Below, piece by piece: positions 10,645 to 32,969 of a DNA stretch of 64,000 nt. Source of the DNA: Stenotrophomonas maltophilia (lineage in GTDB: Bacteria; Pseudomonadota; Gammaproteobacteria; Xanthomonadales; Xanthomonadaceae); assembly GCF_002138415.1 (NCBI RefSeq), contig NZ_CP015612.1, positions 3,202,001 through 3,266,000 of the forward strand, written 5' to 3'. The number at the start of each line of letters is the position of its first letter. Position 1 is the stretch's first letter. The notes beneath the pieces were generated by a model. The model did not search any database. It worked only from the letters and a program-made list of their open reading frames with translations, and was not told the DNA's origin. The translations under genes were made by a program, and so were the position numbers.

Positions 10645-11532
10645 ATGAGCCGTTCCCTGCTTCCGCCGCTCAATGCACTGCGCGCGTTCGAGGCCACTGC
10701 CCGCCTTGGCGGCGTGGGTCGCGCCGCACAGGATCTGCACGTCACCCATGGCGCGGTCAGCCGGCAACTGAAGCTGCTGGAAGATCATCTGGGCCTGGCA
10801 CTGTTCCAGCGTGCCGGTCGCGGGCTGCGCCTGACCGCTGCGGGTACGCGCCTGCAGGCAGCGTGCAGCGAAGCCTTCGGCGGCATCGAAGACTGCGTGC
10901 GAGAACTGCGGCGGCCGGCGGCAGCCCCGGCGCTGGTACTGGGTTGCAGCGGCAGCGTGCTGGCGCGCTGGATGATCCCGCGCCTGCCTGCGCTGCAGGC
11001 CGCCCTGCCCGGCGTGCGCCTGCAGTGGTCGGCGCTGGATGGCAGTTTCACCGAAGCGCAGGCAGCACTGGATGCGGTGCTGCTGCTGGCGCAGGGGCCC
11101 TGGCCCCGGGGCTGGCAGGTGCGTGAGCTGGCGCCGGAACGGGTCGGCGTGGTGGTGGCCCCCTCGCATCCGGCCGCGCAGCGCCTGCGGCATGTACCGC
11201 CCTCGGCGCTGCTGCAGGAGACGCTGCTGCACACCAGCTCACGGCCACAGGCGTGGCCGGCGTGGGCGCAAGCGCACGATCTGGACGTGTCGAAGCTGCA
11301 GCTGGGCATCGCCTTTGAGCACCTGTACTACTTGTTGGAAGCCGCAGTGGCCGGGCTGGGCCCGGCGATCGCGCCAGAGCCGCTGGTGGCCGAGGACCTG
11401 GCCGCAGGCCGGCTGGTCGCACCGTGGGGATTTACCGCCACCGGCGGCTTCTGGGTGCTGGCGCGGCCGGATGGCCCGGCAGATGGGCGCGTGGATGCGC
11501 TGGCCGACTGGCTGGGCCAGCAACTGCGCTGA
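10645..11532 (+). CDS. LysR-family transcriptional regulator, TrpI-like by context
   Basis: A 295-residue LysR-type regulator. The N-terminal winged helix-turn-helix spans residues 7-65 and reads NALRAFEATARLGGVGRAAQ followed by HVTHGAVSRQLKLLED, which is GcvA/TrpI-like. The remaining effector-binding domain is of periplasmic-binding-protein type. AGGAAAT precedes the ATG at good distance. It is transcribed away from trpB, and in pseudomonads the regulator in this position (TrpI) activates trpBA in response to indole-glycerol phosphate. The same job is likely here, but the N-terminus is shared by many GcvA-type proteins, so the name trpI is not assigned. Confidence 0.85.
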   Translation: MSRSLLPPLNALRAFEATARLGGVGRAAQDLHVTHGAVSRQLKLLEDHLGLALFQRAGRGLRLTAAGTRLQAACSEAFGGIEDCVRELRRPAAAPALVLGCSGSVLARWMIPRLPALQAALPGVRLQWSALDGSFTEAQAALDAVLLLAQGPWPRGWQVRELAPERVGVVVAPSHPAAQRLRHVPPSALLQETLLHTSSRPQAWPAWAQAHDLDVSKLQLGIAFEHLYYLLEAAVAGLGPAIAPEPLVAEDLAAGRLVAPWGFTATGGFWVLARPDGPADGRVDALADWLGQQLR

Positions 11533-11536
11533 CAAC

Positions 11537-11603
11537 AAAAGGGGACGGAGGGGATTAAGTCGCAAGTGGCACAAACGACTTAATCCCCTCCGTCCCCTTT
11601 TTT
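11537..11603. terminator. Perfect 26-bp inverted repeat, bidirectional terminator or mobile palindrome
   Basis: A perfect 26-bp stem (left arm 11537-11562, right arm 11576-11601) with a 13-base loop lies exactly between the convergent lysR and telA genes. A-rich and T-rich ends make it a bidirectional terminator. The stem is far longer than a terminator needs and looks like a dispersed palindromic unit. Confidence 0.8.
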
Positions 11604-12712
11604 CAGCTGGCGGTCGGGGTGGCCAGGCGCTGCTGCAGGTCTTCGCGCAGGCGCGACAGCTCGACTTCGGCCTGCTGCCGCTGCTGCATGCCTTCGCGAT
11701 GGATGCTGCGCACTTCCTCGACCGTGGCGATCAACTGGTCGTGCACGTGGCGCAGCGTGGCCACGTCGATCACGCCGCGCTGGTTGCTGCGCGCGGTATC
11801 CACCGAGGCCTGGCGCAGCAGATCGGCATTGCGGCGCATCAGCTCGTTGGTGGCATCGTCGATGGCGGTGGACAACTCGACCGCGGCCTTCTGCTCACCC
11901 AGCGAAAGCTGGATGGCGAACTGGCGCTTCCACGACGGGATGGTGATCTCGCGCACCGTGTTGAACTTCTCGATCAGCTGCAGCGCGTTGGCCTGGATCA
12001 GGCGGATCATCGGCAGCGACTGATCGGCCGCATGCTGCATCAGCTGCAGGTCGGACACGCGCTTTTCGATCAGACGGATCGCGTTGTCGACTTCGCCCTG
12101 GCGGATGCGCTGCTGCGGATCCTCACTGCCCTGCCCGGCCTGCTGCTCGGCCTGCAGTTCGGCCAGGCGCTGCTTGCCGGCGGCGGCATACAGGCCCAGT
12201 GCATGGCGTTCTTCGCGGACGATGTCATGCATGCGGTCGAACTCGCCCACGCGCTTGCCCATCAACGCCTGCTGCACACCGACATCGCCCAGCAGCTGCT
12301 CGATCTGCGCGTTGGTGTCGCTGAACTTCTGCACCAGCTCGCCCTTGGATACGCGCAGGCGGTCGATCAGGCCACCGATCACCGGCACCTTCGACCGCTG
12401 GGCGAAGCCGTCCAGCTTCAGGCTGCGCGCGATGCGCACCACTTCGCCGAGCTTCTCGCCACTGGCATCCAGGTCACGATTGCGCACCTGGTCGAGCAAC
12501 TGGCTGGAGAACGCTGCGGTGCGCGTGGCCGCTTCGCGACCGAACACCTGCAGGTTGCCCGGGCGCAGGTCATCCAGCTCCAGACGGATCTCGGCGATGC
12601 GCGGCAGATCCTCGCGGACCAGGCCAAGCGCCTGCAGTGCGCCTTCATCGAGCGGAGCGGCGGTGGTCGTGCCGGGCACAAGGGCACCGGGGGTCTGGCT
12701 GTCCTGGGTCAT
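11603..12712 (-). CDS. TelA-family (toxic anion resistance) protein
   Basis: A 369-residue, almost wholly alpha-helical cytoplasmic protein of the TelA/KlaA family, named for plasmid tellurite resistance but of unknown biochemical action. Heptad-like helices run through the length, for example LGEQKAAVELSTAIDDATNE and the C-terminal QQRQQAEVELSRLREDLQQR. ATG 12712 (MTQDSQTPG) is preceded by AAGGAG at 8-base spacing, better than the upstream in-frame start at 12760. It is the last gene of a five-gene operon with a YqiJ-like protein, a flotillin, a giant ATPase and a small helical protein. In that setting a role in membrane or chromosome stress is more likely than tellurite alone. Confidence 0.85.
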   Translation of the reverse strand: MTQDSQTPGALVPGTTTAAPLDEGALQALGLVREDLPRIAEIRLELDDLRPGNLQVFGREAATRTAAFSSQLLDQVRNRDLDASGEKLGEVVRIARSLKLDGFAQRSKVPVIGGLIDRLRVSKGELVQKFSDTNAQIEQLLGDVGVQQALMGKRVGEFDRMHDIVREERHALGLYAAAGKQRLAELQAEQQAGQGSEDPQQRIRQGEVDNAIRLIEKRVSDLQLMQHAADQSLPMIRLIQANALQLIEKFNTVREITIPSWKRQFAIQLSLGEQKAAVELSTAIDDATNELMRRNADLLRQASVDTARSNQRGVIDVATLRHVHDQLIATVEEVRSIHREGMQQRQQAEVELSRLREDLQQRLATPTAS

Positions 12713-31669: not shown

Positions 31670-31747
31670 GTAGAGCCGAGCCCATGCTCGGCTGCTGGCT
31701 GCAACTGGTCATGCATTTCTGTGCGCAATAGCAGCCGAGCATGGGCT
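31670..31747. repeat. SMAG palindrome pair, right arm split by IS110
   Basis: Left arm GTAGAGCCGAGCCCATGCTC and following bases (31670-31695) and the start of the inverted right arm (31730-31747, AGCAGCCGAGCATGGGCT) are seen. The right arm resumes at 32946 as CTCGGCTCTAC. Joining the two pieces restores a repeat of the kind intact at 37207-37268, so the IS entered this repeat. Confidence 0.85.
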
Positions 31748-31761
31748 TGTATGTTCCTTCC

Positions 31762-31940
31762 GGCTCCTACGAGGTATGTAGGAGCCAGGGTGGAGGGACC
31801 GTCAACATGATATCTGCGGGTAGCAGCCGACAGACGAGCCGAGCGATCCCCATCCCGCACCTTAACGTCGATAAAGGATCTAGCGGCCTTTGAGGACCGC
31901 CGATGTAGGCAAGCCAACGTGGTGCGGTACCACCCCAGCC
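31762..31940 (+). ncRNA. Candidate bridge RNA of the IS110 element
   Basis: The noncoding left end begins with a perfect 9-bp stem-loop (31762-31770 / 31778-31786). A 6-bp stem TGCGGG / CCCGCA (31815-31820 / 31853-31858) encloses a loop containing GAGCCGAG (31836-31843), the exact complement of the CT core plus right target half CTCGGCTC. A second module has AAGGATCT (31874-31881), equal to the right-end donor sequence through CT, then a hairpin (31883-31900), then TAGGCAAG (31906-31913), which pairs with CTTGTATG of the left end at 7 of 8 positions allowing G-U. This matches the guide logic of IS621-type bridge RNAs. The left-target guide is not clear, and the 3' end is a guess. Confidence 0.6.
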
Positions 31941-31967
31941 CCTCAACAATAGCTGGGAGTTGTGCAG

Positions 31968-32930
31968 ATGTCAGATCGTCACGCTGTCGGTATCGATACC
32001 GATTCAAGGACCCTGGTGGTGGCGTGCCACGGCACCAAGGGCAGCATCCGAATCGCCAATTCAGCCTCGGCCATCAACAAATGGCTGTCCAGCCTGCCCG
32101 CGAAGTCCCGTATTGGCGTTGAGGCAACCAACCGCTACCACGAGCTTGTGGTTCACGCTGCCCAGAAGGCCGATCACGCCGTCTTCGTGCTCAATCCTCG
32201 CGATATCAAGCACTACGCCAAGGGCGTGGCCTGCCGCGGCAAGACCGACTCCGGCGATGCCCAGGTCATTGCGCGCTACATCGCCAAAGAGGCCGACAAT
32301 CTGCACGAGCATGTCGCTCGCTCGCCCGAGCAGGAGCGGCTGCACGTGCTGCTCCAGCAACGTGACAGTCTGGTCCGGAGCAAGGCGAAGTTGAATCTCT
32401 CTCTGGGCGCGGGGGCGTCGGAGTCCGCCCTCTTTGGGCGCATTTTCAGTAGCCTGAAAGAGGCCATTGCCATGCTGGACCAGCAGATTCAGCAGCTGTG
32501 TCGCAGCGGCCAACAGCGCGACCTGTACCGGCGGATCATGACCATCCCCGGGATCGGGCCGACGGTGGCTGCCTTCGTCACCCATCACATCACCCGCTGG
32601 CCGCTGGCCAACTCCGACGCTTGGATCGCCTGCACCGGTCTGGATCCGCGACCCAACGAGTCCGGCGCACGGATCGGCCGACGCCGATTGTCCAAACGAG
32701 GCAATGCCAGCCTGCGCCAGATCCTCTACATGGCCGCCATGGGCCTGACCCGATCCAAAGGCGGCAAGCCTCTCTACCTCGCCATCCGCGAGCGCGGACA
32801 CAGCAGCACCGCCAGCTTCAACATCCTGGCCAGAAAGCTGGCCAAGATCGCCTGGGGCGTCTTCAAGAGCGGCAAGGATTTCGATCCCGCCATGCTGAAG
32901 GTGGGTCAAACCTGCTTCCAGCAGGCTTGA
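31968..32930 (+). CDS. IS110-family transposase (bridge-RNA-type recombinase)
   Basis: A 320-residue transposase. The N-terminal RuvC-like DEDD domain shows D10 (VGIDTD), E52 (GVEATNRYH) and D94/D97 (KTDSGDAQ). A coiled-coil linker follows, then the Transposase_20 domain with TIPGIGPTVAAF and the conserved Ser242 in RRRLSKRGNASLR, the position of the catalytic serine in IS621. ATG 31968 has GGGAG upstream; a GTG six bases earlier is possible. The frame is intact. By family it would insert and excise through RNA-guided recombination at a CT core. Confidence 0.92.
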   Translation: MSDRHAVGIDTDSRTLVVACHGTKGSIRIANSASAINKWLSSLPAKSRIGVEATNRYHELVVHAAQKADHAVFVLNPRDIKHYAKGVACRGKTDSGDAQVIARYIAKEADNLHEHVARSPEQERLHVLLQQRDSLVRSKAKLNLSLGAGASESALFGRIFSSLKEAIAMLDQQIQQLCRSGQQRDLYRRIMTIPGIGPTVAAFVTHHITRWPLANSDAWIACTGLDPRPNESGARIGRRRLSKRGNASLRQILYMAAMGLTRSKGGKPLYLAIRERGHSSTASFNILARKLAKIAWGVFKSGKDFDPAMLKVGQTCFQQA

Positions 32931-32969
32931 CCGCGAACATAGGATCTCGGCTCTACAGACGCAAGACGA

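Follow-up and report, generated by a model that had tools for sequence, protein, structure and literature searches.

The question raised by this locus is how an insertion sequence of Stenotrophomonas maltophilia finds its landing site. The window, that is, the whole stretch of 64,000 nucleotides analysed from contig NZ_CP015612.1, holds an IS110-group element whose noncoding left end was originally predicted to encode a bridge RNA aimed at SMAG repeats. Our analysis indicates that this prediction was right in substance, according to a covariance-model match (E 2.8e-12), covarying stems and matches between guides and targets: the left end very probably encodes a canonical bridge RNA whose guides match the SMAG repeat, which is common in the genome. 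We are highly confident that the element is an IS110-group insertion sequence whose left-end bridge RNA would steer the recombinase into these repeats. This answer is built on what can be read from sequence comparison, namely the ends of the element, a conserved structure, a right guide that changes with its target, a guide register common to the family and the targeting of a repeat.

The host genome (4.67 Mb, single contig) contains three copies of the element with identical protein and left end. As their flanks differ, their comparison fixes the ends: the element lies on the plus strand at 31746..32945 (1,200 bp counting one CT core), running from the CT at 31746 to the letter preceding the CT at 32946. 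The CT core, at 31746..31747 and again at 32946-32947, is common to the target and both element ends, and the noncoding left end (220 nt) is longer than the right one (15 nt), as in the IS110 group. The element interrupts a SMAG repeat, with the left half AGCCGAGCATGGG at 31733..31745 as left target and the right half CGGCTCTAC at 32948..32956 as right target after the core. Joining the flanks in silico regains the empty site AGCCGAGCATGGG-CT-CGGCTCTAC, the reverse complement of a REP listed as Smal1 in PMC2817692; SMAG and Smal1 are taken here as one repeat. A 7-bp subterminal inverted repeat, seen in the sequence and at the circle junction, is formed by GAACATA (32935..32941) and TATGTTC (31750-31756). 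This length departs from the 2-3 bp given for the IS110 group in PMC11208160, a pattern rather than a requirement, and fits the IS1111 range of 7-17 bp, 7 bp being a length given for IS1111 elements in the same source. The element thus resembles the IS1111 group in having subterminal inverted repeats of at least 7 bp, but differs from it in RNA position: in IS1111 elements the bridge RNA is located in the right end, which here has just 15 noncoding nt, while the RNA of our element lies in the left end.

The recombinase gene (31968..32930, plus strand) encodes 320 aa with DEDD_Tnp_IS110 and Transposase_20 domain matches, and its NCBIfam family is named 'IS110 family RNA-guided transposase'. Residues D10, E52, D94, D97 and S232 are invariant among 7 aligned relatives and line up with the DEDD and ESG motifs of IS621, whose residue roles (PMC11208158) underlie the assignment of a DEDD site and a catalytic serine. 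Homology to IS621/ISCro4 is distant (phmmer E 1.9e-25), and four aligned recombinases of the wider family are 33-41% identical to ours. The recombinase profile also matches the TIGR-Tas nuclease TasH (PDB 21kl, E 5.4e-8).

Relatives were collected at several distances. A genus search (E up to 1e-40) gave matches in 8 of 91 genomes, falling into three lineages. Lineage A comprises L011, L012, L013 and L015 (90-92% identity; the ORF of L015 is split into two frames) besides the three copies of the host genome. Twelve copies in G025 form lineage B (55-56%, with a single partial match at 51%), and four in G067 form lineage C (57%, with a single partial match at 67%). After removal of loci sharing the same flanks (L014 and L035 as L013, L020 as L015, L033 as L011, L034 as L012), 7 (A), 12 (B) and 4 (C) insertion sites remained, 23 in all. 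Class searches (369 genomes each), a search around G743 and a scan of viral contigs, which contributed L059 only, yielded the distinct wider relatives L036, L037, L038, L039, L040, L043, L046, L047, L048 and L059; searches around distant matches covered just 1, 3 and 4 genomes. At family level (E up to 1e-60) copies were found in the genus Stenotrophomonas only (3 of 395 genomes), a scan of genome contigs returned three close copies in Stenotrophomonas records with flanks identical to copies already counted, and plasmid records gave no match to the element at E up to 1e-30.

A covariance model, the first check suggested for this segment, was built from nine relatives outside Stenotrophomonas. 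Its top match in the window is the predicted bridge RNA core at 31787..31921 (plus strand, E 2.8e-12; next match 0.034), and it recovers all 22 further copies of lineages A, B and C that were submitted to it. At E up to 1, it matched none of the 11 loci examined from other IS110 elements (L004-L010, L049-L052). Its second and third matches in the window (E 0.034 and 0.06) fall in a palindromic stretch at 11496-11627 and are probably due to chance. Against Rfam at gathering thresholds, the whole window matches no family. The fold comprises, all on the plus strand, a 5' stem-loop (GGCTCCTAC / GTAGGAGCC, 31762..31786), a target-binding loop (31788..31855) closed by the covarying stem 31788-31796 / 31848-31855 and divided by a hairpin with a bulged A (31813..31834), and a donor-binding loop (31865..31920) closed by the covarying stem 31865-31868 / 31917-31920 and divided by a hairpin that also covaries (31883..31900). 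Both the 5' stem-loop and the hairpin between the donor guides had been anticipated.

Conservation of this structure was evaluated on aligned relatives; all 15 left ends aligned start with CTTGTATG. RNAalifold proposed 17 pairs, 9 of them changed on both sides. Pair 146-199 was excluded from the covariation count, and the target-loop hairpin was left out and folded row by row because MAFFT had shifted its 5' arm by one column in most of the distant rows; its single bulged base is kept in 12 of 13 sequences folded. For 16 pairs in three helices, 96.7% of the cells pair, and doubly changed cells number 28 versus 8.9 in shuffles, with none of 500 shuffles as high and at most 3 when the pairs are slid. 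A second measure, further pair types, showed no excess over shuffles (267 of 500 as high). The window sequence alone folds weakly better than its shuffles (z -1.79, 9 of 200 equally good). Two lineage B copies in G025 carry internal tandem duplications in the left end, covering most of the bridge RNA in L027 and part of the donor loop in L026.

The second loop matches the element's own ends. Its left donor guide AAAGGATCT (31873..31881, plus strand) includes AGGATCT, seven letters identical to the right end; the original prediction of full identity between AAGGATCT (31874-31881) and the right end TAGGATCT (32940-32947) thus holds for 7 of 8 letters. The last position of this guide is G in lineages B and C. 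At 31905..31913 (plus strand), the right donor guide, GUAGGCAAG, pairs discontiguously with CTTGTAT, two letters being skipped, a pattern described for IS621 in PMC11208160 and PMC11208158. The pairing proposed earlier between TAGGCAAG (31906-31913) and the left-end donor CTTGTATG does reach 7 of 8 positions with G-U, and the donor guides obey the IS621 rule as expected. We considered a contiguous right donor guide and set it aside, as the discontiguous IS621 pattern fits better.

According to these pairings, and by analogy with IS621 for transcription, RNA binding and strand exchange, a cycle can be proposed. Excision to a circle would join both ends and restore one CT core, and the joined ends would create a sigma-70-like promoter transcribing the RNA and the recombinase. 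This promoter would consist of a -35-like TTGACC (32927..32932, plus strand) and a -10-like TATGTT (31750..31755, plus strand), found 17 bp apart only in the circle form; IS621 also has a natural sigma-70 promoter at its joined ends (PMC11208160). A -35 of at least 5/6 at 16-18 bp is present in 8 of 14 junctions, for a random expectation of 0.013 each among rows that are related. The other six have a weak or absent promoter, L040, L039 and L043 reaching 4 and L038, L048 and L059 reaching 3. The second loop would then pair with the joined ends through the donor guides at 31873-31881 and 31905-31913, and the first loop with the target, the left guide (31803-31812) pairing to the bottom strand left of CT and the right guide (31836-31843) to the top strand right of CT. 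The guide letters match the SMAG repeat, a GTAG-tagged palindrome, and the recombinase would swap strands at CT, so that the element would land between the loop and the arm CGGCTCTAC.

The right target guide provides the clearest evidence. In the window copy, GAGCCGAG (31836..31843, plus strand) is, as originally claimed, the exact complement of CT plus the right target half, being antisense to CTCGGCTC over all 8 letters. Lineage A combines guide GAGCCGAG with right target CTCGGCTC in 7 of 7 sites. Lineages B and C combine guide GAGTCGAG with CTCGACT in 16 of 16. Alignment of sibling elements, also suggested as a check, consequently shows the varying right-target base agreeing with the guide base in all 23 distinct insertions; the eighth letter of the right target, C, is present in 20 of them and absent in L019, L027 and L028. 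An unchanged loop in siblings that use different targets, which would have spoken against a guide, is therefore not seen for the right target, but lineage B does show four left-target forms under one left guide. Within hosts, the choice between repeat variants is weakly informative. Both occur frequently in these genomes. The GCTCGGCTCTAC variant occurs 115 times in G000, 58 in G025 and 88 in G067, and the A variant of the repeat 48, 75 and 45 times by one pattern or 85, 146 and 363 by another, giving chances of about 0.10, 0.06 and 0.45 that are rough and not decisive because the count patterns differ in strictness. G008 and G078, with one copy each (L013 and L014, identical flanks), have just 4 and 1 GCTCGGCTCTAC sites.

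The predicted left target guide is CAACATGATA at 31803..31812 (plus strand), its last two positions facing the core, in a register obtained from 11 elements; its sense match to the left target, reaching the core, holds across the family but is weak in this copy. Two other segments were rejected. TGCGGGT, tentatively put forward earlier as the left guide and as part of a stem, does form a stem, as it is paired within the target-loop hairpin, and is not the guide; GTAGCAGCC (31820-31828), considered for its variability, corresponds to the loop of the same hairpin and some of its 3' arm. In lineage A, the left guide pairs at 5 of 7 non-core positions with GG sites (3 of its 7 sites), but only at 1 of 7 without a bulge at GGG sites (the other 4, including the window's own), where a one-letter DNA bulge would lift the pairing to about the GG level. 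Pairing is also poor for lineage B at its commonest site (2/7), L037 (3/7) and L039 (2/7). Core T is faced by an A of the left guide in A, B, C, L036/L040 and L046/L047 (5 of 11 distinct elements), and core C faces U in lineage A and A in L059. According to PMC11208160, the core is part of each of the four guides of IS621, with a strong preference for core pairing.

This raises a narrower version of the bridge RNA reading, compatible with it, by which the RNA reads mainly the right half of the target, with a decayed left guide and a left side that is accepted without being matched. Its appeal is that all 23 right targets agree with their guide, whereas left targets vary under a single left guide (two forms in lineage A, four in B). 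On the other hand, the lineage C left guide pairs at 6 of 7 non-core positions of its site, and the B and C left guides, one letter apart, differ in the direction of their respective sites. We consider this version possible, though doubtful.

A different objection is that the recombinase alone recognises the repeat and the matching RNA letters arose by chance or as a captured repeat-like sequence. An 8-letter match is by itself modest evidence. Moreover, the B and C recombinases are only 55-57% identical to ours; one right-guide letter and one right-target letter differ together, and this change of guide and target alongside a diverged protein means that the protein could also be the cause. 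The wider family is what argues against it. We compared guides with own and swapped targets in 11 elements, some of them related, taking as left guide the ten letters before the target-loop hairpin and as right guide the ten ending after it. Lineage A was represented by the GG site of L002 instead of the window's GGG site, and B by the site it uses most often, a poor match; L040, L047 and other copies were excluded as near-duplicates from the 16 rows computed overall. Left guides match their own targets at 56 of 77 non-core positions versus a mean of 37.6 when swapped, and right guides at 66 of 77 versus 44.3 (p about 3e-5 in both cases). As the guide windows had been chosen with the targets already in view, offsets were scanned. 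For the left target, the sense peak lies exactly at the guide (excess 20.2; next 8.5; best antisense 9.1); for the right target, the antisense peak lies directly past the hairpin (23.9; next 11.1; best sense 11.6). Distant elements with unrelated targets thus match at the same two places of the RNA, for which the capture of one repeat is no help, and we judge recognition by protein alone very improbable. Still less credible is a translation-regulating leader of the transposase mRNA with no guide role, although the left end is structured and directly upstream of the recombinase gene: this reading would account neither for the matching of guides and targets in 11 elements nor for the fit of both donor guides to the ends of the element.

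Returning to the bridge RNA reading, SMAG repeats appear to be a landing site shared by several elements. Of 30 joined sites, 28 conform to a strict repeat pattern, L028 and L029 lying in degenerate repeats. Seven other IS110-family copies detected in the same genome at E up to 1e-3 (L004-L010; 28-29% identity) also sit inside SMAG repeats. Six belong to a 1,224-bp element, and the seventh represents a 1,136-bp element whose ends were deduced from the interrupted repeat. Both elements insert at the CT of CTACA, not at the CT before CGGCTC. Their left ends carry, in guide order, a nine-letter sense stretch (CTCGGCTCT) followed by GTAG, and an eight-letter stretch (TCGGCTCT) followed by TCTGTAG; GTAG alone is a short match of little evidential weight. 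All ten IS110-family copies found in the genome are therefore in a SMAG repeat, with three different putative RNAs spelling it. L027 is bordered by CGACTGCTTTGAACGGCAGTCGAGCAAG on either side, an arrangement resembling the outcome of recombination between two insertions in a REP pair. In S. maltophilia SM 866, two identical IS110 transposases reportedly flank an inversion of 2.4 Mb (PMC12607529), and the involvement of a bridge RNA would be a testable question there.

The mechanism itself is known. PMC11208160 describes bridge RNAs and the rules of their guides, predicts such RNAs in most IS110 elements and reports that IS621 targets REPs; REP targeting by other IS elements was described earlier (PMC1525189). 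The elements of Tobes and Pareja (2006) are alike in REP insertion, but concern other hosts and elements, at a time when the guide RNA was unknown. In a literature search limited to open-licence papers, we found no published account of the guides of our element. It shares with IS621/ISCro4 a DEDD and serine recombinase, an RNA in the long left end, a CT core, a pair of guide loops that a hairpin divides in two, a discontiguous right donor guide and a promoter-like junction of the ends, and with IS621 the targeting of REPs. Right guides are antisense as in IS621, and left guides run in sense across the family, though the left target match is weak in this copy. It differs in its distant protein, in a right target guide of 8 letters versus 4 in IS621, in a core T faced by A in the left guide, in a 7-bp subterminal repeat versus 2-3 bp, and in SMAG as target instead of the E. 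coli REP. The element is a clear natural example of this mechanism, in which the right guide is longer and the left guide degenerate.

It is tempting to propose, and we give it an even chance, that in this genome the bridge RNAs of three distantly related IS110 elements have come to target SMAG convergently, at two CT dinucleotides, their guides evolving after the REP family of the host. In this proposal, the lineage studied here would read mainly the right side with its 8-letter guide, tolerating left loop-length variants and a left guide unpaired with core T. The bridge RNAs described here, new and with a right guide of 8 letters, would offer a handle on the need for a left guide and for core-T pairing, and relatives that are one right-guide letter and one right-target letter apart would constitute a natural experiment in guide drift. 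If the convergence is true, REPs spread by other transposases would be a common landing pad tracked by guide-RNA mutation, which would help account for the accumulation of IS110 elements in REPs.
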